From Nitrospira sp. (lineage in GTDB: Bacteria > Nitrospirota > Nitrospiria > Nitrospirales > Nitrospiraceae): a DNA stretch of 64,000 nucleotides. The DNA is taken from positions 186,001 through 250,000 of the forward strand of contig JAEURX010000052.1 of assembly GCA_016788885.1 (NCBI GenBank). The letters run 5' to 3'. The position numbers were made by a program, and so were the translations under genes. Position 1 is the stretch's first letter, and each line of letters opens with the position of its first letter. Below the pieces are notes generated by a model that did no database searches, was not told the origin of the DNA, and worked only from the letters and a program-made list of their open reading frames with translations. Shown in pieces: positions 27,681 through 39,270 of this stretch.

Positions 27681-28142
27681 ATGGGCCTCTTTCACGCCGA
27701 ACGACACGCCATGAGCAAAACTCTCAAAGAAATGGATGTGCTTCGCCAACATCTGGCCAAGCATCAATTGAAACTGACTCGCCAGCGAGAACTGATCCTG
27801 ACGGCGTTCCTTCGACAGGAGCACGTCACGGCGGAAACCATGTACCATCAGCTTGCCAAGAAAGATCCCCATCTGGGGCTGGCCACGATCTACCGCACGC
27901 TCAACCTCTTCTGCGAGGCCGGAATTGCCCAGGCGCGCCACTTCGGCACGCAGACGCAATACGACAATATCTCGCACAAAGGGCATCACGATCATCTCAT
28001 CTGCACCGGCTGTGGCACGATCGTCGAGTTCGAGAATTGCGAAATCGAACGGCTGCAGGAGGAGGTCGCGACAAAAAATGGTTTTGTGATCCAAACCCAC
28101 CGCCTGGAACTGTACGGTCTCTGCCCGCGCTGCCGCCATTGA
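27681..28142 (+). CDS. fur: Fur-family transcriptional regulator
   Basis: The product is 153 residues (143 if the ATG at 27711 is used). It has a winged helix (LTRQRELILTAFLRQEHVTA, LGLATIYRTLNLFCEAGIA) and the metal-binding dimerisation domain with HHDHLICTGC, two CxxC zinc sites (CTGC and CPRC) and H-x-H residues. This fits Fur better than PerR or Zur, because it lies directly upstream of ferric-iron transporter genes. A Fur-box-like operator overlaps the promoter of the porin operon at 35.7 kb. Confidence 0.88.
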   Translation: MGLFHAERHAMSKTLKEMDVLRQHLAKHQLKLTRQRELILTAFLRQEHVTAETMYHQLAKKDPHLGLATIYRTLNLFCEAGIAQARHFGTQTQYDNISHKGHHDHLICTGCGTIVEFENCEIERLQEEVATKNGFVIQTHRLELYGLCPRCRH

Positions 28143-28179: not shown

Positions 28180-28238
28180 TTATCAATTTCAACTAGAGCG
28201 CCCGTTTCGGGCAATCCTTACACGTGGAGGCATGCCGC

Positions 28239-29270
28239 ATGGCTTCATCCCCTCGCTCCCTCTTCGCGCTGGCCTTTATCCTCGGCAGTCTACTGTGCTC
28301 CCAACTTCTCACCACACCTGTGGAAGCAGCGGACAAACTCGTCGTCTATTCTGGTCGAGCCGAGCGCCTAATCAAGCCGGTTCTGGACGAATTCCAGTCC
28401 AAGAGCGGCATTCAGGTCGAACTCTTGTCTTCGGGAACAACTGAACTGGTCAACCGGTTGCAGGCCGAGGGCGACCACAGCCCCGCAGACGTCTTCCTCA
28501 CCAACGATGCCGGGAGCCTCGAGCATGCCCGGGAACTGAAACTACTCCGGCCCATGAACATGCGCGAAGTCGAACGAGCCATTCCTCCACAGTTCCGCGC
28601 AAGCGACAACAGTTGGATCGGACTGTCTGGGCGATTCTGGATCGTCGTCTACAACACGAACCTGGTCAAACCTGAACAGATCAACTCCTTACTCGATCTG
28701 GCTCAACCGCAGTGGAAAGACAAGATCGCCATTCCAAACTCCGGCAGCGAGTACCTCCAAGCCGGCGTCTCCGTTATCAAAGCCACTTTCGGCGATGACC
28801 GCACGAAGCAATTTCTACAAGGTCTCAAGGCCAACGCCGGAACACAGGTGTATCAGAAGAGCTCGCAAATCGTGGAAGCGGTGGCCAAAGGCCACGTTGC
28901 CCTCGGGATCGTGAACCACTACTACATCTATCGGCACCTGGCCGCCCAGCCGGCCGCGCCCATCGCCGCCATTATGCCCGATCAGCAGGAGGGCGGGATG
29001 GGGGCCATCATGAACGTGACCGGAATCGGGATCACCCGCACCTCGAAGCATGTGGACAGTGCCAAGCTATTGGTCGAGTTCCTGGTGGCTCAAGCTGGAC
29101 AAAAACTGTTCGCAGACCTCGATAAAGAATACCCGTTGCACCCGGACGTCAAAGCCGACCCGGCGCTGGTCGACCGCCACAGCTTCCGCGCGGCACTCGT
29201 GCCGCTGGCCCGACTCGCGGAACTGCGCGAGAGCACACTCACGCTCATCGAGCAAGTCGGCCTTCGCTGA
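28239..29270 (+). CDS. fbpA: Ferric-iron ABC transporter, periplasmic binding protein
   Basis: The 343-residue product has a signal peptide (FALAFILGSLLCSQLL, cleaved near VEAADK) and the FbpA/class-II binding-protein pattern KLVVYSGRAERLIKPVLDEF. Adjacent tyrosines in VNHYYIYRHL match the family's ferric-iron ligands. The ATG at 28239 has GTGGAGG 8 bases upstream. It captures Fe3+ in the periplasm for the permease and ATPase encoded next, 14 bases downstream. Placement after fur supports iron rather than thiamine or another substrate. Confidence 0.9.
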   Translation: MASSPRSLFALAFILGSLLCSQLLTTPVEAADKLVVYSGRAERLIKPVLDEFQSKSGIQVELLSSGTTELVNRLQAEGDHSPADVFLTNDAGSLEHARELKLLRPMNMREVERAIPPQFRASDNSWIGLSGRFWIVVYNTNLVKPEQINSLLDLAQPQWKDKIAIPNSGSEYLQAGVSVIKATFGDDRTKQFLQGLKANAGTQVYQKSSQIVEAVAKGHVALGIVNHYYIYRHLAAQPAAPIAAIMPDQQEGGMGAIMNVTGIGITRTSKHVDSAKLLVEFLVAQAGQKLFADLDKEYPLHPDVKADPALVDRHSFRAALVPLARLAELRESTLTLIEQVGLR

Positions 29271-29284
29271 TCCCTTAGCCGCCT

Positions 29285-30889
29285 ATGTTCCCTACGACAC
29301 GCATCCACGCACCATCGTCGCTGCAATGGGTCAGCCTCATTACCGCCGCGTTCCTGGTTCTTCCCACCGGCTATATTATTTACGTGGCCATGACGGCTGC
29401 GCCTACCGTGTGGACTCGCCTGTGGTCTACGCGCATCCCGGAATTGCTCGGCAACACCCTCTCGCTTGCCGCCAGTGTGGCACTCACCACCCTGGGGCTT
29501 GGGCTCTCCCTGGCCTGGGTTATCGTACGTTACGAATTTCCCGGCCGCCGTATTTGGGAATGGGCGCTCGCGCTGCCTTTAGCCATGCCAACCTACGTAC
29601 TGGCGTACGTCTATGCCCATCTCCTGGGAATGGGCGGACCGGCAGAACAGTGGTGGCAGGCCATGCTGGGATCGGAGGCACGACTGCTCTCCCCCCAAAG
29701 TTTTCTTGGCGTCACACTCATCATGGCTCTGGACACCTTCCCGTTCGTCTACCTGCTGGTTCGCGGAGCGCTTCTTAACCTCAATCTGTCTTTTGAGGAA
29801 GTGGCTCGAGTCTGCGGCGTTGCTCCCTGGGCCACGCTGTGGAGAGTCACACTACCACTCATCCGTCCCGCCATCGCAGCGGGTCTTGCCCTTGTCGTGC
29901 TGTATGTGATCTCGGACTTCGGGGCCGTCTCACTCCTCCGCTACCAGACCCTTACCTATGCGGTCTATCAGCAAATGACCAGCCGCTACGACCACACGGC
30001 TGCCAGCATCCTGAGTCTGCTCCTCGTGCTCATGGCTGGAGTCTTCCTCGCCACTGAGCGGTGGTTTCGCCAGCGCAGCCGCTTTTATCAGACAACGGGT
30101 CGGTATCGGAAGGCCGCGCGCCAGCAGGCTGGCCCCATAGGAACACTCTTGATTACCGGCTACGTGCTCTTGGTCTTTGGCGTGTCGTTCGGCGTGCCTG
30201 CAGCGATGTTAATTCATTGGAGCATTGAAGCCATCGCGCAAGGGGCACTGGATGCGCGCTTCATTGGCTTCGTCTGGAACAGTAGCTTTCTTGCGGCCCT
30301 GGCGGCCAGTGCTGCCGTCATCATCGGGCTTCCATTGGCCTATCTCGCCAACCGTCGTCCAACCCGGCTCAATCTCGCCTGTCTCCATGCAGCCTATGCG
30401 GGATATGCGCTACCAGGTCCCGTCGCGGCCCTCGCGGTGCTCGTGCTCTTCACGCAGTTTGTCCCAGCCCTATACGGCACCGTCGTCGTATTGTTGATCG
30501 CGTACACTCTGCACTTTCTCCCCGTCGGACTGCAGTCGATGGAGCCGGCGCTGCAACAGATTACCCCCAACGTGGAGGAAGTCGCGCGCACCCTGGGCTG
30601 CACAACCCAACAGAGCCTGCGACGCATCACACTGCCCCTGGTTCGTAATGGTTTCACTGCGGCATGGGTACTCATGTTTCTCCAAACGATGAAGGAACTC
30701 CCAGCAACTTTGCTGCTGAGGCCGGTGGGATTTGATACACTGGCCATTCGTGTCTGGCTGGAAGCCAGCGAAGAGTATTACCAACTGGCGGCGCCGGCCG
30801 CACTGCTGATTGTCTTCCTGAGCCTTCCAGCGCTGATGTTGCTGGTTTCCAAGGACTGGCGTGGACACGCGAAGGAGAGCGCCACGTGA
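29285..30889 (+). CDS. fbpB: Ferric-iron ABC transporter, permease
   Basis: The 534-residue integral membrane protein has about twelve hydrophobic segments in two fused permease halves. Each half has an EAA-type loop: FEEVARVCGVAPWATLWRVT in the first half and VEEVARTLGCTTQQSLRRIT in the second. This two-domain layout is that of FbpB. It overlaps the ATPase gene by 4 bases and follows the binding-protein gene by 14 bases, so it is the middle of a three-gene operon. Confidence 0.92.
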   Translation: MFPTTRIHAPSSLQWVSLITAAFLVLPTGYIIYVAMTAAPTVWTRLWSTRIPELLGNTLSLAASVALTTLGLGLSLAWVIVRYEFPGRRIWEWALALPLAMPTYVLAYVYAHLLGMGGPAEQWWQAMLGSEARLLSPQSFLGVTLIMALDTFPFVYLLVRGALLNLNLSFEEVARVCGVAPWATLWRVTLPLIRPAIAAGLALVVLYVISDFGAVSLLRYQTLTYAVYQQMTSRYDHTAASILSLLLVLMAGVFLATERWFRQRSRFYQTTGRYRKAARQQAGPIGTLLITGYVLLVFGVSFGVPAAMLIHWSIEAIAQGALDARFIGFVWNSSFLAALAASAAVIIGLPLAYLANRRPTRLNLACLHAAYAGYALPGPVAALAVLVLFTQFVPALYGTVVVLLIAYTLHFLPVGLQSMEPALQQITPNVEEVARTLGCTTQQSLRRITLPLVRNGFTAAWVLMFLQTMKELPATLLLRPVGFDTLAIRVWLEASEEYYQLAAPAALLIVFLSLPALMLLVSKDWRGHAKESAT

Positions 30890-32037
30890 GCCCAGTGAAC
30901 GAATCAATTACAGGCGAGCAACATACTAAGTCAGGGGATATGGTGTCGAACGCGCTGGATATGCCTACTGAACGTTCGGCCGTTCTTGAATTGCGTGACG
31001 TGTCATGCGCGTATGAGCCGACCAGGCCGGCCGTCGAAGGCATTACCTTCACGGTCCACGAAGGGGAAATCCTCTGTCTGCTAGGACCTTCCGGCTGCGG
31101 CAAGACGACGATCCTTCGCGCCATCGCAGGATTTGAACGAGTGACCGCTGGCAGCATCGCGCTGTCGGGGCAACTGGTATCTTCGCGGGACACCATGATT
31201 CCCACTGAACAGCGGCATATCGGCATGGTCTTCCAGGAATACGCACTGTTCCCGCACTTACGGGTCGAGAAGAATATTGCCTTCGGCCTGCAGCACCTTT
31301 CGCGAGCCCAGCAGCAGACGATTGTCGATGACCTTCTCACGTTAACCGGCCTGCGGGGATTGGAGCATCGCTATCCGCATGAACTCTCCGGCGGTCAACA
31401 ACAGCGCGTTGCTCTTGCTCGTGCCCTGGCCCTTCGTCCGGTGCTCCTCCTCCTCGATGAACCATTCAGCAATCTCGATCCCGATATGGCAAGTCGTATG
31501 CGTCAGGATCTTCACGCCTTGCTGAGGCAAACCAAGACCACGGCTATTCTGGTGACCCATGATCATGACGAGGCCTTTTCCATGGCCGACCACGTCGCAG
31601 TCTTAAACAAAGGACGGTTGGAACAGTTCGATACGCCGGAAGCCATCTACCACCTTCCTACGACCCCCTTCGTTGCTGACTTTGTCGGGCAAGCGGACTT
31701 TATCGCCGGAGTCGTAACTCACCAAGTGGTGGCAACCGAAATCGGTGACTTTCCGAATACTCAGAACCTCGCGACGGGTACACAGGTCGTTGTGATGATA
31801 CGTCCCGACGACCTTCACATCGTCCCGACAAAAGGGGCCGACGCCCGTATCCTTGCTCGGCAATTCAAGGGATCTGAAAACGTCTACACGATTCAATTGC
31901 CGTCAGGCCAAATCGTGCATAGCAGTGAATCATCCCTGAGCATTTATCAGGTTGGGACTGCCATCGCCTTGCGCGTGGTGGCGACCCATACCGTGTTGTT
32001 TTTGCAACCATCCGGCGCACCGCCGATGGTATCGTGA
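30886..32037 (+). CDS. fbpC: Ferric-iron ABC transporter, ATPase
   Basis: The 383-residue protein has Walker A GPSGCGKTT, Q-loop VFQEYALFPH, signature LSGGQQQRVALARALAL, Walker B LLLDEPFSNLD and H-loop THDHDEA. A C-terminal regulatory domain resembling TOBE follows (VVVMIRPDDLHIVP). It starts with GTG, overlapping the fbpB stop by 4 bases (GTGA). The first 30 residues precede the usual ABC start, so a later start is possible. Confidence 0.92.
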   Translation: MSPVNESITGEQHTKSGDMVSNALDMPTERSAVLELRDVSCAYEPTRPAVEGITFTVHEGEILCLLGPSGCGKTTILRAIAGFERVTAGSIALSGQLVSSRDTMIPTEQRHIGMVFQEYALFPHLRVEKNIAFGLQHLSRAQQQTIVDDLLTLTGLRGLEHRYPHELSGGQQQRVALARALALRPVLLLLDEPFSNLDPDMASRMRQDLHALLRQTKTTAILVTHDHDEAFSMADHVAVLNKGRLEQFDTPEAIYHLPTTPFVADFVGQADFIAGVVTHQVVATEIGDFPNTQNLATGTQVVVMIRPDDLHIVPTKGADARILARQFKGSENVYTIQLPSGQIVHSSESSLSIYQVGTAIALRVVATHTVLFLQPSGAPPMVS

Positions 32038-32148
32038 GTTCAGACCCATATTCGGTCGCCATACCGAACACGACGCAGAAGAGCATAGTAGTGATGTGCT
32101 GCGGGCTTGCCCGCCGCGCGATAACAGTGAGAGGTGGAGGATGAACGA

Positions 32149-32580
32149 ATGGACGTGCTGAAGAACGCGGTTGAGTATGGGATCATCGGCCTATTAATCG
32201 CCTTGAGCGTCTGGTCGGTCGCGGTCGCGGTCGAGCGATGGCTCTACTATCGACGGGTAGATCTGGCACAATTTGCAGACGTTCAAACGTTTGAAATGGC
32301 ACTGACCAAGCGGCTCGTCATCATCGGTACCGTCGCCGCAAATGCCCCGTATATCGGCTTGCTGGGCACGGTCCTAGGAATCATGATGACGTTTCATACC
32401 ATGGGCACCTCCGGAACGATGGCCGTGAACACGATTATGATCGGCCTGAGCCTGGCCCTGAAGGCTACGGCCGTCGGTCTCCTGGTGGCAATTCCCTGTG
32501 TCGTTATGAACAATATTCTTCGCCGACGCGTCGCTGAACTGCTGACGACCTATAAGGTGCATCATGGAACGCGAAGTTAA
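32149..32580 (+). CDS. ExbB/TolQ-type proton-channel protein (short form)
   Basis: The 143-residue product contains the MotA/TolQ/ExbB domain: an N-terminal membrane segment (GIIGLLIALSVWSVAVAV), then APYIGLLGTVLGIMMTF and TIMIGLSLALKATAVGLLVA. It is shorter than the usual 220-240 residue ExbB. The ATG at 32149 has GGTGGAGG 8 bases upstream; a GTG at 32134 lies inside that site. With the ExbD and TonB genes, which overlap in turn, it should drive TonB from the proton gradient. Confidence 0.88.
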   Translation: MDVLKNAVEYGIIGLLIALSVWSVAVAVERWLYYRRVDLAQFADVQTFEMALTKRLVIIGTVAANAPYIGLLGTVLGIMMTFHTMGTSGTMAVNTIMIGLSLALKATAVGLLVAIPCVVMNNILRRRVAELLTTYKVHHGTRS

Positions 32581-32938
32581 TCAGATCAACGTCATCCCGC
32601 TGGTCGATGTCATGCTGGTGCTGCTCGTCATCGTGCTGACGACCGCCACCTTCATCAGTACGGGTCAAATTCCCGTAAACCTTGCAAAAGCCAAGGAGGC
32701 CGGGGATCATAAAGATGTTCCCGTCGTGGTCACGTTGACCGCCAACGGAGATTTGTTTCTCAATGATCGTCCCGTCCCGGCGGATGGTCTGAAGAGCATG
32801 CTGCTGGTCCATCCGAAGGAATCCCTGGTTGTCGTGCGCGCGGACAAAGTCACCCTGCTCGAACGTTTCGTCTCAGTTGTCGATGAAATCCGTGGCCTGG
32901 GATTCCAATCTGTCAGCCTCGAGGTCGTTCGCCTGTGA
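32564..32938 (+). CDS. exbD: ExbD/TolR-type protein
   Basis: The 124-residue protein has the ExbD layout: a short cytosolic start (MEREVNQINVIPLVDVMLVL) with the proton-pathway Asp in its membrane helix, then a periplasmic domain (PVVVTLTANGDLFLNDRPV). It overlaps the exbB-like gene by 17 bases and the tonB gene by 4, which points to coupled translation of one complex. Confidence 0.92.
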   Translation: MEREVNQINVIPLVDVMLVLLVIVLTTATFISTGQIPVNLAKAKEAGDHKDVPVVVTLTANGDLFLNDRPVPADGLKSMLLVHPKESLVVVRADKVTLLERFVSVVDEIRGLGFQSVSLEVVRL

Positions 32939-33891
32939 CGGCTTTCCATCCCGGCACGCCGGATCCGTTCATCCGTATGCGTCTAAGCGGCTGGATCATT
33001 TCGCTCTGCCTGCATGGCGCAGCCGTCATTTTGGCAGCATTCCTCGCCGCCAGAATCGGACTAACCCCGCCTTCATCGTCGTTCCGTTGGGACGTGACAG
33101 TCGTCGCCTCAGCACCCGCTACGCCATCAGCAACGACCGACAAGCCACAGGTTGCTGCCACACCATCGCGGATAGCAGAACGGAGGACGCTCGGAACACC
33201 GCACCGCGCCACCCCCGCTGACTCATCACGTTCGACGAAATCGGTCCTGACCTCGCAGAGCACCGTCCATGAACCGCAGACTTCGGTTCCGGTTGCCCCA
33301 TCGCCGCCCCAAAATAGTGAACTGACGTCTCAACCTCCCATGATACCTCCTGCTCCCGAGCCCCTGGAATCACTCCGTGAGCAGCCGGCCTCGGAACAAT
33401 CTCTTCCATCAGCAGTTGAACCTCCGGCAGAAGCTCACGAACACCACACATCTTCACCTTCTCCGAGCAAAGACAGCGAGACGATCGCACAACCACCGTC
33501 GTCACAACACGTTCTCCAGCAAACGCCTGAAGAGACGCCAGCTCCTATTTCAACCGCAGCCCTTGCCCCATCAACAAGCACCACGCCGGTGACTCGAAAG
33601 CCCGACTACGGTTGGCTTTCGGGCGTCCTATTGCCGCGCATTGAAGCGCTGAAGCAGTATCCCATCGATGCGCGACTCAAACATGCTGAGGGACGAGTGG
33701 TTGTACGAATTGTCATTCAGGAAGATGGACAAATCCTGTCCGCAACGATCGCCAAGAGTTCTGGGCATGACATTCTCGATCAGGCAGCCCTTGAGACCAT
33801 TCGAAAAGCTTCACCCATCATGCTGACTCAGCCTCTAGAGAAATCGCAGATCACAATACAAGTGCCCCTCAGCTATCAATTAGGACGATAA
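32935..33891 (+). CDS. tonB: TonB energy-transducing protein
   Basis: The 318-residue product has an N-terminal membrane anchor (IISLCLHGAAVILAAFLAAR), a long periplasmic linker rich in Pro, Ser, Thr and Glu (about 45-215), and the TonB C-terminal fold (YPIDARLKHAEGRVVVRIVI, SGHDILDQAALETIRKASP). It should contact outer-membrane receptors at TonB boxes. No TonB-dependent receptor is encoded in this window, so its receptor is elsewhere. It ends the exbB-exbD-tonB operon. Confidence 0.92.
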   Translation: MTAFHPGTPDPFIRMRLSGWIISLCLHGAAVILAAFLAARIGLTPPSSSFRWDVTVVASAPATPSATTDKPQVAATPSRIAERRTLGTPHRATPADSSRSTKSVLTSQSTVHEPQTSVPVAPSPPQNSELTSQPPMIPPAPEPLESLREQPASEQSLPSAVEPPAEAHEHHTSSPSPSKDSETIAQPPSSQHVLQQTPEETPAPISTAALAPSTSTTPVTRKPDYGWLSGVLLPRIEALKQYPIDARLKHAEGRVVVRIVIQEDGQILSATIAKSSGHDILDQAALETIRKASPIMLTQPLEKSQITIQVPLSYQLGR

Positions 33892-33937: not shown

Positions 33938-34945
33938 CTATTCGTGCCCCCCATGAATCTTGACTCGTTCTTTGAGATATGACGAGACCCAAACGTTTCC
34001 ATCACGATCAACGATGACTGCACCAACCCCCGGCAGACGCTCGATCAGCGCTAACCCTCGTTCTCGCCCCATCACAAAAATTCCAGTGTCCAATCCATCC
34101 GCCATCGTCCCGTCTCTTGCTATAACCGTCACGCTTTGACAATCCTGTGCCGGGCGTAACGTCGCCGGATCGAGAATATGATGGTATCGGACTCCATCCC
34201 GTTCAAAATACCGCTCATAGTCACCGGCCGTGGAAATCGCTTCATCCTGGAGATCAACAGATGCCAACAGGGCATCTTCTCGTCGTGGATGCCGAATGCC
34301 AAACACAAATGTTTCGTGCCCTGGAAGTCGACCAAATGTCTTAATGTCGCCCGAGAGGGCAACGACTCCGGCTGTTGCTCCTGCCTTTCGCATCGCTGCG
34401 ACAGCCATGTCCGCAGCGTATCCTTTGCCGATGCCCCCCACATCAACGCGCATGCCGGGTTTTGCGAGATAACCGGTACTGGGGGCGACATCGAGATGAA
34501 GCTCTCGCAGATCCAGAAGTGGACGAACCGCTTGCAACATCTCATCCGAGGGCACCTGTTGCCGATCTAAGACGCTCCACGCCTCAACAGCAGGCCCCAC
34601 GAGGATGTTGAACCCTCCTTCGGTCAGACGAGCCATCTCGATCGATGTCTGCAAGATATGCATCGTTTCAGGACTGATCGTAACTGGCCCTTTCCCCGCT
34701 GCGGCATTCATTTGAGACAGTTCGCTGGTTGCAATCCATGTACTGAGCAAATCTTCCAACCGATGAATCTCTTGAAACCCTGCCGTTGCTGCCTCTTGCG
34801 CACTTTGACGGTCCGGTGCCACCGAGGTAATTGTTACGAGCGTGCCCATTTGCATTTGCGTCCGCTTCACGACGACAGGACTAGACACGACCTCGTTACT
34901 TGCGCATCCCCAACTAAGCGAGAACGCAACAATCAGGTGAGGCAT
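33938..34945 (-). CDS. apbE: FAD:protein FMN transferase ApbE
   Basis: ApbE attaches FMN covalently to threonine in exported or membrane proteins. The product (335 residues from the ATG at 34945) shows MQMGTLVTITSVAPD, the active-site region MRVDVGGIGKGYAADMAVAA, ALSGDIKTFGR and the Mg-binding end VTVIARDGTMADGLDTGIFV. The N-terminus is a signal that may be lipidated (FSLSWGC), which fits a periplasmic location. A start at 35038 would overlap the upstream lipoprotein gene. A likely substrate with the SGAT motif is encoded at 38051-38740. Confidence 0.9.
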   Translation of the reverse strand: MPHLIVAFSLSWGCASNEVVSSPVVVKRTQMQMGTLVTITSVAPDRQSAQEAATAGFQEIHRLEDLLSTWIATSELSQMNAAAGKGPVTISPETMHILQTSIEMARLTEGGFNILVGPAVEAWSVLDRQQVPSDEMLQAVRPLLDLRELHLDVAPSTGYLAKPGMRVDVGGIGKGYAADMAVAAMRKAGATAGVVALSGDIKTFGRLPGHETFVFGIRHPRREDALLASVDLQDEAISTAGDYERYFERDGVRYHHILDPATLRPAQDCQSVTVIARDGTMADGLDTGIFVMGRERGLALIERLPGVGAVIVDRDGNVWVSSYLKERVKIHGGHE

Positions 34946-34982: not shown

Positions 34983-35609
34983 CTACCAGAGATGGCGCTG
35001 AAAATACCTCGGGTAGCGAGGGTATGGGAGGACTTCATAGAGTCGGGTCTCCGTTTCTGCGGGCGAAGGAATGAGTGTGGATAAGATTTCGCTTCCAAGG
35101 GTAGGATACCGCATTCGAATGGTCTGCTCGACTTCCTGTCGCGTGTCGTCTTCGGCCACCATTGATACAAGAACCATGCGTCCATACCGCGGCGAATCTA
35201 CTCCGAAACGCCAGGTGCCAACAAAGATCATTGATGTCTCGCCTATGCAGAAGGAAGACGAGAGCTGAGCGATCGACCTAAATGGTCCTTCACTGATTTG
35301 CACACGAGTAATTTCATAATGTCCAGCCGGAAGGAAAAGCACAAATGTCTTGTCGCCGGTCTCGAGTATTGCACTGTAACGCTCTCCCGTTTGCCGATGC
35401 ATGAACTCCAACCAACGCACCTCCGGCTCAAACCGTCTACCCCGATCTCCGGTAATCAACGCCATCGCTCGACCTGAAACCAGAATCATCGGAGGTCCGA
35501 CCGAGAGAGGGGGGACTGAAGCCTCTCTCACACACCCCACCAGGGCGAGGAGGCAAATCATGCTGCAATTCAACCTCAAGATGACAAGGAATCGCAGTGA
35601 CTGCTTCAT
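34983..35609 (-). CDS. Lipoprotein, hypothetical
   Basis: The 208-residue product starts with a lipoprotein signal (ICLLALVGC), so it is membrane anchored. The mature part is beta-rich (FVLFLPAGHYEITRVQI, MIFVGTWRFGV), like small carbohydrate- or surface-binding folds, but I recognise no family. The ATG at 35609 is the start of the signal; the frame upstream is implausible. It precedes apbE by 37 bases and shares the divergent promoter region with the zinc ribbon and porin genes. Confidence 0.7.
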   Translation of the reverse strand: MKQSLRFLVILRLNCSMICLLALVGCVREASVPPLSVGPPMILVSGRAMALITGDRGRRFEPEVRWLEFMHRQTGERYSAILETGDKTFVLFLPAGHYEITRVQISEGPFRSIAQLSSSFCIGETSMIFVGTWRFGVDSPRYGRMVLVSMVAEDDTRQEVEQTIRMRYPTLGSEILSTLIPSPAETETRLYEVLPYPRYPRYFQRHLW

Positions 35610-35677: not shown

Positions 35678-35718
35678 TTGACATTCTCTCGCTGATCGGG
35701 ATATTAATAATCGTTCTC
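35678..35718 (+). promoter_or_regulatory. Sigma-70 promoter overlapped by a Fur box
   Basis: TTGACA at 35678-35683 is a perfect -35. The -10 region (TATTAA) begins 18 bases later. It lies within GATATTAATAATCGTTCTC (35700-35718), which matches 15 of 19 positions of the classical Fur box GATAATGATAATCATTATC. Iron-loaded Fur bound there would block transcription of the zinc-ribbon/porin operon starting at 35747. Two copies of GCGCAATTA (35611 and 35642) lie beside the divergent lipoprotein promoter. Confidence 0.7.
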
Positions 35719-35746: not shown

Positions 35747-35926
35747 ATGACGTCTACCAATTCTCCGATACCCTCTTTGTGCCAGGACAGCGAAACACGC
35801 TGTGAGTGCGGCCAACTGATCGCCAAAGTTCGTGGACAGGGGCTGGAGCTCAAATGCAAGCGATGCAAACGCATTGTGGTCATCCCATTCACCTCAATTG
35901 AAGGGTGGGGCACGGTGCCGGCATGA
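35747..35926 (+). CDS. Small Com-like zinc-ribbon protein
   Basis: This 59-residue protein has two paired-cysteine sites, CECG (residues 19-22) and CKRC (37-40), separated by LIAKVRGQGLELK. That is the pattern of the Com family of zinc-ribbon regulators, named for the phage Mu translational activator of mom. The start ATG is weakly supported, since no strong ribosome-binding site is seen. It is the first gene after the Fur-box promoter and lies 134 bases before the porin. A regulatory role on the porin message is a guess. Confidence 0.65.
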   Translation: MTSTNSPIPSLCQDSETRCECGQLIAKVRGQGLELKCKRCKRIVVIPFTSIEGWGTVPA

Positions 35927-36060
35927 TTCAATTCACGAAAGGAGGCCTCCGCACCGGAAAGCATTCAAGGCTTCAGTCACCCCCTCAGACTTTCATCACA
36001 GACCAGAGACCGTTGAGTCCCGAGTCATTCCATAACTTTACTCGCGGATGGAGGATACCC

Positions 36061-37536
36061 ATGAAGATCCGGGCAATCCTCGGGGCTCTCGTCTTGGCCA
36101 GTCTGTCGGCAATGCCGGCGTTGGCGGAAAACCTGACCCCGGAGGAGATCAAGCAGTTGGTTGACGAAGCTGTTGAAAAGCGTTTACGGGAGCACGAGCG
36201 CCGCGAAGGAGTGTCTGAGCGTAAAGAAGGCTTGACCACTCCTGGCAATGAGCCAGGAATAGGGTCACTTCCGGAGGTCGGAAAAGAACGCCGCTCCGAC
36301 ACGCAACCCGCCCTGTCATTCGGATCGACTGGGTCCGGTCGTCTCGTCTATGCCAAACCATTCGTTTCGGCCCCGAAGGCCATTGTGGGCGGCTATATGG
36401 ACATTCAGTATCGTTCCCACAATAAAGGCGTTTTGGAAACGGGCGGTTTTGGTAGCGGAACCACGAATGGATTCGATCAACAACGCTTTGTCCCATTTAT
36501 CTATGCCGATATTACGGAGCATGTAAAATTTGCGTCAGAAATTGAGATCGAGCACGGCATTCGGGAAACCAGTGACAATGAAATCAGCCTGGAATTTGCT
36601 CATATTGACTATTTAGTGCACGAACCGTTTAACCTCAGAGCGGGCATCTTGCTCATTCCCATCGGCAAGTTCAACCTGCTACACGATTCACCACTCAACG
36701 ACTTGACGGACCGTCCACTTGTGAGTCAACTGATTATCCCTTCCACGATGGCCGAGACCGGAGTCGGATTCTATGGCACTCTCTATCCAGGTCGCACCAG
36801 TAAGCTGGATTATGAGTTTTACGTCACCACCGGTCCTTGTGGATATAACCAGGATGGCTCTCCACGAGTCAGCGAGGAGAATGGGACTCGCAACTCCCGT
36901 CAGCGGAAATGTGCTTCCGATGATGGCCTGGACATTAACAATGGGAAAGCGGTTTCAGGTCGCGTCGCATTCAGCCCGATGTTGGGTGTGGAAGTCGCCG
37001 GATCGAGCTACTACGGCAATCAATCATCCACCAGCTACAACCCATTGAGCATCACGGCAATTGACTGGACCCTACAGAAGGGACCGTTTGAAATCCTCGG
37101 TGAGGCCGCGTGGGCCTACTCCAGAGGAAACTCCCGTGCCATTCAAGGGGCTACCTTCGCCACGCCCGGCACATTTCTGACGGGTATCAACACATTAAAT
37201 TCCTTCGCAGGGCCACCGCAACGGATGCAGGGGTTCTATATTCAAGGCAACTACCACTTCATGCCGGCGTTCCTGACGAAACTCTCACCTAAGCGGTTTG
37301 GTGAGGGTTCAACCTTTACGGCTGTTGTCCGTTATGATCGCGTGAATTTAAACCGCGACAACCGCGGGGAAAACCAGGGCGAATTGGAACAAATTTCCTT
37401 TGGTCTGAATTATCGGCCGGTTGAAGACGCGGTCTTCAAGATTAGCTACCAATATATGCCAAAGTCCTTTAACCCGAACACGGGAGAGCGGATTCACGAT
37501 AGTGCCGTTGTGATCTCAGCGGCGACATATTTCTAA
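36061..37536 (+). CDS. Outer-membrane porin with N-terminal coiled coil
   Basis: The 491-residue protein has a signal peptide (ILGALVLASLSAMPALAENL), a short helical region (EEIKQLVDEAVEKRLREHE) and a long beta-barrel domain with alternating strands and a C-terminal aromatic (VVISAATYF). It resembles phosphate-selective or carbohydrate porin-like families (OprO/P type) rather than TonB receptors, since no plug domain is seen. GGAGG precedes the ATG at 36061. The Fur-box promoter upstream suggests iron-responsive expression. Confidence 0.8.
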   Translation: MKIRAILGALVLASLSAMPALAENLTPEEIKQLVDEAVEKRLREHERREGVSERKEGLTTPGNEPGIGSLPEVGKERRSDTQPALSFGSTGSGRLVYAKPFVSAPKAIVGGYMDIQYRSHNKGVLETGGFGSGTTNGFDQQRFVPFIYADITEHVKFASEIEIEHGIRETSDNEISLEFAHIDYLVHEPFNLRAGILLIPIGKFNLLHDSPLNDLTDRPLVSQLIIPSTMAETGVGFYGTLYPGRTSKLDYEFYVTTGPCGYNQDGSPRVSEENGTRNSRQRKCASDDGLDINNGKAVSGRVAFSPMLGVEVAGSSYYGNQSSTSYNPLSITAIDWTLQKGPFEILGEAAWAYSRGNSRAIQGATFATPGTFLTGINTLNSFAGPPQRMQGFYIQGNYHFMPAFLTKLSPKRFGEGSTFTAVVRYDRVNLNRDNRGENQGELEQISFGLNYRPVEDAVFKISYQYMPKSFNPNTGERIHDSAVVISAATYF

Positions 37537-37543
37537 ACCGGTC

Positions 37544-37579
37544 TCAGATGCCCCCTCTCCGCAAGGAGGGGGCATCTGA
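37544..37579 (+). terminator. Strong stem-loop after the porin gene
   Basis: TCAGATGCCCCCTC (37544-37557) and GAGGGGGCATCTGA (37566-37579) form a perfect 14-base stem with an 8-base loop. No T-run follows, so it may stabilise the porin message 3' end or attenuate transcription into the lipoprotein gene. Confidence 0.6.
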
Positions 37580-37601
37580 ACTCAGGAAGGTGCCAGTTAA
37601 C

Positions 37602-38066
37602 GTGTCGATTTCACATATTGCCATATCAGCCATTTTGCTCCTTACGACCGGCTGCGCCGCCCTAAGCGGAAGCCGGGAGCAATATTATGTCTGCTCCTAT
37701 GACAGGGTCTGGGATGCCGCGCTCGACGTCATGAAGGGGCAGTCTATCGCGACTTCCGACAAAGGTGCAGGACTGATCGAAACTGCATGGATGGACGTTG
37801 AACCCATTACGGAACGCTCGTTCGGACTCTTTTCCCGTGAAGGATTCGGGAATAAAGAACGTGCACGCGTAAGCGTTGCAGTCAAACGGATGAACGAGGT
37901 GGCTTCAGTCAGCGTATTGGAAACTAGACAGCGATGGCATTCGCGAGGGGGAGTGACTTCACAAGCCACAAAATGGTGGCCAGCAGACCCATCGGAAGCC
38001 ACAACGAATGAGATTGTAGATCGAGTCAATGCCAAACTGAAAGAACAAGGATGTCTGCCCACATGA
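37602..38066 (+). CDS. Lipoprotein, hypothetical
   Basis: The 154-residue product (GTG start with AGGAAGG 11 bases upstream) has a lipoprotein signal ending ILLLTTGC. The mature domain (YYVCSYDRVWDAALDVMKGQ, GLIETAWMDVE) has the alternating alpha/beta pattern of BamC/NlpB-like or DUF-type outer-membrane lipoproteins. Other in-frame GTG and ATG starts lie 12-54 bases upstream. It overlaps the FMN-binding protein gene by 16 bases, so the two are co-translated. Confidence 0.65.
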   Translation: MSISHIAISAILLLTTGCAALSGSREQYYVCSYDRVWDAALDVMKGQSIATSDKGAGLIETAWMDVEPITERSFGLFSREGFGNKERARVSVAVKRMNEVASVSVLETRQRWHSRGGVTSQATKWWPADPSEATTNEIVDRVNAKLKEQGCLPT

Positions 38067-38740
38067 GAACTCATCTGCTTGTCTGTTCATTGATGCTACT
38101 CTGGTCACTCTCCCCCATTCCTGCGTCGGCAGAACGCGTGTGGGACAGTGAACTGAAGCGTTATTTAACGGAACAAGAAATGACGATGGCAGAAGTGTTT
38201 CTGACCGAAGAAGAAGCCCTTAAACTTATGTTCCCCAAATCAGCACGGGTCAGGAAAGAAGCACTCAACCTTCCACCGGACAAGAAGGCAGTCATCGAAA
38301 GTCGCATTGGCTGGAACTTTCCGGAGGAGTCGTTCGAAGTCTATGTCGGCGAGACCGGCACGCACATTGATGGGTATGCGTTGGTCCAAAACACGATCGG
38401 CAAACACAAACCCATGACGTATATGGTTGGCGTAGACGCGCAAGGCCTGGTCTCCAATGTCGAATTACTCGTTTTTCGCGAGGCGCGCGGCAGTGAGGTA
38501 CGCACCAAACGGTTTAACGTCCAGTATGAAGGCAAATCCGTACTCGATCCGGTCCGAATCAACAAAGACATTATCAACATCAGCGGCGCCACGATGTCTG
38601 TCCGCTCTATGACCGCAGGCATTAAACGAGTGTTGGTGTTGGTGGACGAGTTCTACCTGAAACCGCAAGGGCTTGGCAGCGACACGGTGACTGCCCAAAA
38701 GACCGAGAAGGGTTTCTTTAAGTCGATTTTCGGGAACTGA
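38051..38740 (+). CDS. Exported FMN-binding-domain protein (ApbE target)
   Basis: The 229-residue product has a signal peptide (LLVCSLMLLWSLSPIPASAE) and an FMN_bind domain at about 95-195 (GETGTHIDGYALVQN, YMVGVDAQG). The motif INISGATMS places Thr181 where ApbE attaches FMN through a phosphoester bond. Expected role: a periplasmic one- or two-electron carrier. ApbE itself is encoded 3 kb away on the other strand. The gene is followed 11 bases later by the His-bearing membrane protein. An ATG at 38063 is an alternative start. Confidence 0.87.
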   Translation: MSAHMRTHLLVCSLMLLWSLSPIPASAERVWDSELKRYLTEQEMTMAEVFLTEEEALKLMFPKSARVRKEALNLPPDKKAVIESRIGWNFPEESFEVYVGETGTHIDGYALVQNTIGKHKPMTYMVGVDAQGLVSNVELLVFREARGSEVRTKRFNVQYEGKSVLDPVRINKDIINISGATMSVRSMTAGIKRVLVLVDEFYLKPQGLGSDTVTAQKTEKGFFKSIFGN

Positions 38741-38751
38741 TTCCAGCAGAC

Positions 38752-39270
38752 ATGCGCAATTTCAACACCCGGTTTCGCCTCCGCGATTCGGATCGTCACA
38801 TCAGGCTGGTCTACACATTCTTTCTCTTGTTGATGCTCGCCGGCTTTACGTTTTCATTTTTCTGGGCACACAGTATGACAGGCTTGTCCCCGCAGGGAAT
38901 TGCTGACCATTACCGTGGGTCCAACGCAACATTCGGCGAACCGATGTCTTTCCGTGAACTGGCTGAAATTACCCACTTCCACCTATTCACGATGCCCGTT
39001 GTGTTTATGATCCTCGTTCATGTCCTCTACTTAACGAACGCCAGCAACCGACTGAAAATTGTCACGACTTGGGTTTCCTTCGGAGGGGTTATCCTGGACC
39101 TCATATCCCCGTGGTTGATCAGTTATGTTTCTCCTGCCTTCGTATTGACTATGCTGACAGGCGATACGTTTATGACGGCAGGATTCTTGGTCATGTTTGT
39201 TATCCCGCTCCATGAAATGTGGATTCTGAAACAACCGTTGATGGCAGGCAAACGTGGGGAGCACGGATGA
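38752..39270 (+). CDS. Four-helix membrane protein with paired histidines
   Basis: The 172-residue product has hydrophobic segments at about 19-38, 78-95, 103-123 and 140-158. Histidines at 75 and 77 (THFHLF), 90 and 154 lie at or in helices and could ligate haem b or metal. No family is assigned. It starts 11 bases after the FMN-binding protein gene and is probably its membrane partner. A cytochrome-b-like electron donor from the quinone pool is an inference from position and histidines only. Confidence 0.65.
   Translation: MRNFNTRFRLRDSDRHIRLVYTFFLLLMLAGFTFSFFWAHSMTGLSPQGIADHYRGSNATFGEPMSFRELAEITHFHLFTMPVVFMILVHVLYLTNASNRLKIVTTWVSFGGVILDLISPWLISYVSPAFVLTMLTGDTFMTAGFLVMFVIPLHEMWILKQPLMAGKRGEHG

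Follow-up and report, generated by a model that had tools for sequence, protein, structure and literature searches.

A predicted Fur-controlled flavinylation module with a porin and a four-helix membrane protein in Nitrospira

Systems for extracytosolic electron transfer in which ApbE occurs together with FMN_bind proteins have been described (PMC8238504, PMC11334425). They feature a [S/T]GA[S/T] site for flavin mononucleotide (FMN) and are linked both to iron genes and to a membrane partner. Flavinylation has been linked to iron reduction (PMC8238504), and the DUF4405 family consists of haem b cytochromes (PMC11334425). Here, we report a locus of this kind in a 64,000-nucleotide stretch of DNA (hereafter, the window) from a Nitrospira-like genome of the order Nitrospirales (assembly GCA_016788885.1, contig JAEURX010000052.1, positions 186,001 to 250,000; G000:C52:186001-250000). 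Its operon, at window positions 35747-39270, encodes a zinc ribbon, a porin, a lipoprotein, an FMN_bind protein and a four-transmembrane His protein, here called TM4, and an apbE gene is divergent from it. With a probability of roughly one half, we read the locus as a Fur-repressed iron-assimilation module centred on a covalent-flavin reductase.

The locus resembles the described ApbE/FMN_bind systems in its ApbE and FMN_bind motif, its iron genes and its membrane partner. It pairs apbE with a linked substrate gene that encodes a [S/T]GA[S/T] site, and by this sequence evidence it is a flavinylation system. However, TM4 matches none of NapH, MsrQ, PepSY, DsbD, NQR/RNF (NqrB/RnfD) and DUF4405 in Pfam, nor do its distant homologues, placing the membrane partner outside the listed classes. 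In addition, the operon includes a porin, a partner unmentioned in PMC8238504, where the word itself is absent. PepSY-type flavinylation clusters (PMC8238504) are similar in that Fur-repressed flavinylation is tied to iron uptake, but they use a PepSY membrane protein, a family to which TM4 has no match.

Proteobacterial plasmid clusters (L179-L181) contain a porin homologous to that of the window (137-186 bits), an FMN_bind protein, ApbE and a four-transmembrane protein. Unlike the window locus, they showed no zinc ribbon or LpB, fbpABC is not adjacent, and their four-transmembrane protein has no detectable similarity to TM4, the one from Ideonella being weakly DUF4405-like. A search for TM4 in plasmids gave no match. 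Literature searches returned no paper joining ApbE, FMN-binding, porin and flavinylation, and none that combined Nitrospira with FMN-binding and iron uptake or tied the module to Nitrospira; papers naming both Nitrospira and ApbE were, by their titles and abstracts, unrelated in topic.

Gene content and conservation of the locus

A first-pass annotation of the window had proposed the order zinc ribbon, porin, lipoprotein, FMN_bind protein and four-helix protein with ApbE divergent, and all five named genes were present as claimed. The linkage was also kept in relatives, as counted across fetched loci with denominators that differ by gene (77-95 loci). The FMN_bind gene adjoined the TM4 gene in 95 of 95 loci, porin and zinc ribbon were linked to it in 85 and 83 of 86, respectively, and a divergent ApbE was found in 77 of 79; exbB and fbpC were each linked to the TM4 gene in 69 of 77. 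Most members of the window's own family retained the complete order fbpB-fbpC-exbB-exbD-tonB, reversed ApbE, zinc ribbon-porin-lipoprotein-FMN_bind-TM4. In the sister family, exbBD-tonB was not found at the locus. The operon lipoprotein had a counterpart in every Nitrospirales locus examined that spans its position. Such conservation of gene order, strands and operator throughout Nitrospirales puts the locus far beyond chance.

TM4 was detected in 50 of 148 Nitrospirota genomes, including nearly all sampled Nitrospirales (73-92% identity), and its relatives elsewhere were more distant. In a contig search for TM4, considered for the best 80 of 160 relatives, the rows shown were of Nitrospirota type, with two bins labelled Nitrosospira, and members of other phyla may also carry it. 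In N. defluvii, TM4 is encoded at about FP929003.1:1002618-1003133. A class-level (L081) and a phylum-level relative (L082) retained zinc ribbon, porin, FMN_bind and TM4, and this cassette lies beside a FUR gene in L081 and beside a FeoB gene in L082. In the window genome, fur and binding-protein genes occur just upstream of the module and two ferritin-like genes just downstream. The features, in window positions, are:

27681..28142, + strand: Fur-family regulator gene (Pfam FUR, 1.5e-34), upstream end of the iron cluster
28224..32037, + strand: FbpABC-type ATP-binding cassette (ABC) importer, comprising solute-binding protein (28224-29270), permease (29285-30889) and ATPase (30886-32037) (Pfam SBP_bac_6, BPD_transp_1, ABC_tran)
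32134..33891, + strand: ExbB-ExbD-TonB energiser (32134-32580, 32564-32938, 32935-33891) (Pfam/NCBIfam)
33938..34945, - strand: ApbE FMN transferase, probable lipoprotein; inferred start, reading frame open to 35185 (Pfam ApbE)
34983..35609, - strand: divergent lipoprotein of no family, between ApbE and the zinc ribbon; inferred start
35678..35707, + strand: sigma-70-like promoter, TTGACA-18-TATTAA
35700..35718, + strand: Fur-box-like operator, GATATTAATAATCGTTCTC, overlapping the -10 element of the TTGACA promoter
35747..35926, + strand: Com-like zinc ribbon of 59 amino acids (CxC...CxxC), first operon gene
36061..37536, + strand: 16-strand outer-membrane porin of the Porin_O_P family (Pfam, AlphaFold, Foldseek)
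37545..37586, + strand: strong RNA hairpin without U-tract, directly 3' of the porin stop (folding)
37602..38066, + strand: probable lipoprotein with weak BamC/DUF3576 similarity; inferred GTG start
38051..38740, + strand: periplasmic FMN_bind protein, predicted FMN-Thr181 codon at 38591-38593 (Pfam FMN_bind)
38752..39270, + strand: TM4, with H53-Y54, H75xH77, H90, D116 and W157 (AlphaFold, conservation)

For the divergent lipoprotein, a search found counterparts in only part of the loci. The Cys residues and the RxC/LELKC core of the zinc ribbon were conserved in 21 sequences; the only family profile it matched was Zn_ribbon_4, weakly (E 0.089), and we take it to resemble the Com regulators of phage Mu. 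Two unusual arrangements were observed. Zinc ribbon, porin, lipoprotein and FMN_bind are tandem-duplicated with a single TM4 in L070 (G036:C8:22000-41500), where the two porins diverge strongly (72% versus 43% identity to the window porin). ApbE and zinc ribbon are absent between tonB and a shortened porin in L090 and L116 (G108); this genome has no ApbE anywhere, and the gap is either a true deletion or an assembly error.

Flavinylation site, operator and porin

ApbE was assigned by Pfam (265 bits, 7.2e-79) and by a match to PDB entry 4xdt (1.7e-43), and is single-copy in the window genome and in most relatives. The FMN_bind protein, also single-copy in the window genome, scored 31.3 bits in Pfam (cut-off 22), and its closest solved relatives were RnfG subunits (7.6e-15). 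Its SGAT sequence, noted in the first-pass annotation, is present at residues 178-181, with Thr181 as the predicted FMN site. Thr181 and Gly179 did not vary among the 23 sequences aligned, which come from Nitrospirota and from proteobacterial plasmids; SGAT is replaced by SGGT in one of them, a Sphingomonas homologue. A class-level relative encodes ApbE and FMN_bind as a 507-amino-acid fusion in one open reading frame (L081:5107-6630). Because both proteins are single-copy and are fused in this relative, ApbE, earlier proposed as the installer of FMN, very likely acts on the FMN_bind protein, with predicted flavinylation at Thr181.

Regulation by iron was assessed upstream of the operon. In 73 of 101 such regions, the site closest to the E. 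coli Fur consensus agreed with it at 15 of 19 positions, and composition-shuffled regions reached at most 14 of 19. Across 74 distinct upstream segments, conservation of the 19-mer and of the TTGACA box was mostly 93-100% per base, with a variable spacer. We also scanned 17 genomes of the genus for the operator with up to three mismatches, using the reversed pattern as a control. The motif was present at the TM4 operon in 17 of 17 genomes and, in 11 of 17, also 56-66 base pairs (bp) upstream of bfd (bacterioferritin-associated ferredoxin; Pfam 7.3e-08); only two other sites, both isolated, were found, and the control pattern gave one. The copy at bfd in the window genome lies 62 bp upstream of the gene (L184:1501-1519; G000:C74:21337-21355). 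In other bacteria, bfd is an iron-starvation gene. Given the near-invariant operator and the same motif at bfd, control of the operon by iron through Fur is very likely, although the operator itself is putative. The earlier description of the porin as Fur-controlled is consistent with these data, including the overlap with the -10 element and the presence of fur in the cluster, the genome having two FUR genes in all.

The porin scored above the Pfam Porin_O_P cut-off (25.2 versus 20.9 bits) and was modelled by AlphaFold as a 16-strand barrel with a helical N-terminus (predicted local distance difference test, pLDDT, 70.5). Foldseek matches of this model were ordinary diffusion porins (DcaP, OmpC, OprP), down to 1.6e-11. 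Searched by profile, the PDB gave only a weak match to OprP (E 0.0067). Family and strand number are shared with the phosphate-selective porins OprP and OprO; however, identity to them is 12%, and the window porin occurs in a Fur-type rather than a phosphate context. In the porin itself, we noted neither a haem motif nor any other redox motif. A long stem comparable to the hairpin at the porin stop was formed in nearly all of 24 porin loci folded. These hairpins are unrelated in sequence between genomes, retain their structure and have no U-tract; the hairpin probably keeps the porin more strongly expressed than the genes that follow it.

TM4, the proposed mechanism and its alternatives

No Pfam or NCBIfam match to TM4 was found at E values up to 1. 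Its AlphaFold model (pLDDT 85) has four long helices and a short periplasmic helix, and the loop was placed outside from the positive N-terminus and from the CxxCH motif that relatives have in the same loop. In an alignment of 47 rows, a few of them near-duplicates, H75, H77, Y54 and W157 were invariant. All 23 sequences whose partner has SGAT contain H90 and none of the 24 others does, a count that omits one repeated L081 row. The invariant residues and the correlation of H90 with SGAT fit a redox partner. By analogy, the plasmid clusters suggest that TM4 fills the same slot, that of electron donor, as their four-transmembrane protein, and it is mainly for this reason that a redox role for TM4 is preferred.

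The relatives of TM4 formed three branches. The first is the iron branch described above. In the second (L085, L086, L087, L088, L213, L214, L239), relatives with His-rich loops occur in NikK/NikL/CbiMQO nickel/cobalt energy-coupling factor (ECF) clusters that also encode OprB-like porins and, as partners, FMN_bind-like proteins without SGAT; this branch supports metal handling by TM4. Proteins of the third, of about 240-270 amino acids, carry the c-haem motif CxxCH, and one is flanked by a Rieske/cytochrome b pair on one side and cytochrome c on the other, which supports electron transfer. In the latter locus (L235:5073-8089), cytochrome b, Rieske, the TM4-like CxxCH protein and cytochrome c are encoded in a single cluster, and the TM4-like protein is a candidate for an unannotated subunit of a bc-type complex.

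TM4 shares with subunit I of heme-copper oxidases an HxH at the start of a transmembrane helix (HFHLFTM versus HFHYTMM), and several oxidases were among its fold matches. However, there was no Pfam match, and profile comparison was not significant (E 0.05-0.07, probability about 1%), with controls scoring nearly as high; we keep this relationship as a lead only. Many stand-alone proteins of 130-200 amino acids that match part of COX1 (HxHxN motif) were also observed in Nitrospirota (L212-L229).

Gene order and its conservation, the SGAT motif, the operator with its copy at bfd and the barrel type are observations; for this module, we infer flavin attachment, a cofactor in TM4, a direction of electron flow, iron as the substrate and roles for the porin and lipoproteins. 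During iron starvation, Fur would leave the operator and the zinc ribbon-porin-lipoprotein-FMN_bind-TM4 operon would be transcribed. Small ferric chelates could reach the periplasm via the 16-strand porin, and ApbE would flavinylate the FMN_bind protein at Thr181. From the inner membrane, TM4, whose conserved His/Asp/Tyr cluster would face the periplasm, would pass electrons, probably from quinol, to this flavin, which would reduce or release the chelated iron in the periplasm. Import may proceed through the neighbouring FbpABC, or through FeoB in one related lineage (L082); reduction may strip iron off its chelators, to be re-bound by an FbpA-like protein. In favour of this reading are the conserved gene order and strands, the near-invariant operator repeated at bfd, the adjoining fur, fbpABC and exbBD-tonB genes, the ferritin-like genes downstream, the relatives with FeoB or FUR beside the cassette, the single-copy ApbE and FMN_bind and their fusion in L081, the correlation of H90 with SGAT, the plasmid clusters, the TM4 relatives with CxxCH and the published link of flavinylation to iron reduction.

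Several points weigh against iron assimilation by such a route. FbpABC classically takes up Fe3+, FeoB is the usual importer of reduced iron, and no FeoB was found in any of the 26 Nitrospirales genomes sampled; import is the weak point of the mechanism, though the L082 cassette lies beside FeoB. The exchange of electrons between TM4 and quinol is assumed. The plug domain of TonB-dependent receptors is matched 15 times in the window genome, and iron could thus enter by routes other than the porin. A fold search with TM4 in the PDB gave nothing below E 0.7, a result that excludes no fold. Binding of haem or metal by TM4 is putative, its relatives occurring in both cytochrome and nickel/cobalt-transport clusters, and the presence of the family in nickel/cobalt clusters with partners lacking the flavin site means that it may handle metal, not electrons.

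This last possibility is a serious rival, to which we give perhaps half the weight of the iron-assimilation reading. TM4 would bind or escort metal on the periplasmic side of the membrane via H53, H75, H77 and D116, and FMN_bind would act locally, with no electron transfer across the membrane; an ancestral cassette of pore, FMN_bind fold and TM4 would have served metal uptake, with flavinylation gained or lost by lineage. The nickel/cobalt branch is as expected from this, and so is the presence in nearly all branches of H75, H77, Y54, D116 and W157, mostly in the periplasmic half of TM4. However, it is the SGAT-linked branch that adds an invariant H90, and another branch has c-type haem motifs and a member beside Rieske and cytochrome b genes.

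It is rather improbable that the flavin protein is an iron-sparing carrier, which would replace an iron-containing periplasmic carrier in starvation while the porin is co-regulated for another solute. Fur control is consistent with such a role, and replacement of cytochromes by flavins is discussed in PMC8238504; but the porin belongs to the same operon, FbpABC and TonB genes are nearly fixed neighbours, and FeoB is a neighbour in L082. Least probable is a conduit for extracellular electron transfer from TM4 through FMN_bind and the porin to the outside, as gene order and the existence of analogous porin-cytochrome conduits are its only support, while the modelled 16-strand, diffusion-porin-like barrel would be too narrow for a folded carrier and the operon has no multihaem gene.

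The first-pass annotation had proposed an electron path to the outer membrane. Its likely ApbE role, Fur control and conserved linkage are supported. The data do not support electron flow to that membrane, however: the modelled porin is a 16-strand barrel of the ordinary diffusion type, and the iron setting of the locus points to entry of iron chelates instead.

Iron acquisition in Nitrospira and the TM4 family

Nitrospira have an iron-rich respiratory chain and play a major part in nitrite oxidation and complete ammonia oxidation. To our knowledge, their iron acquisition has been little studied. It is conceivable, at somewhat less than even odds, that TM4 and its relatives are small membrane oxidoreductases of a hitherto unnamed family, which pair with FMN_bind-fold proteins and, together with an outer-membrane pore, form a portable metal-uptake cassette. 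This cassette would exist as flavinylated iron (Nitrospirales and relatives), unflavinylated nickel/cobalt ECF and c-haem respiratory versions, and would provide Nitrospira with a reductive step of iron uptake without FeoB. TM4 is a candidate addition to the known membrane partners of flavinylation-linked electron transfer, and the nickel/cobalt loci suggest a flavin-free role of the FMN_bind fold in the uptake of these metals. For Nitrospira itself, an operon that is near-universal in Nitrospirales and has its own predicted iron-responsive operator offers a specific, testable answer to how these bacteria may acquire iron.

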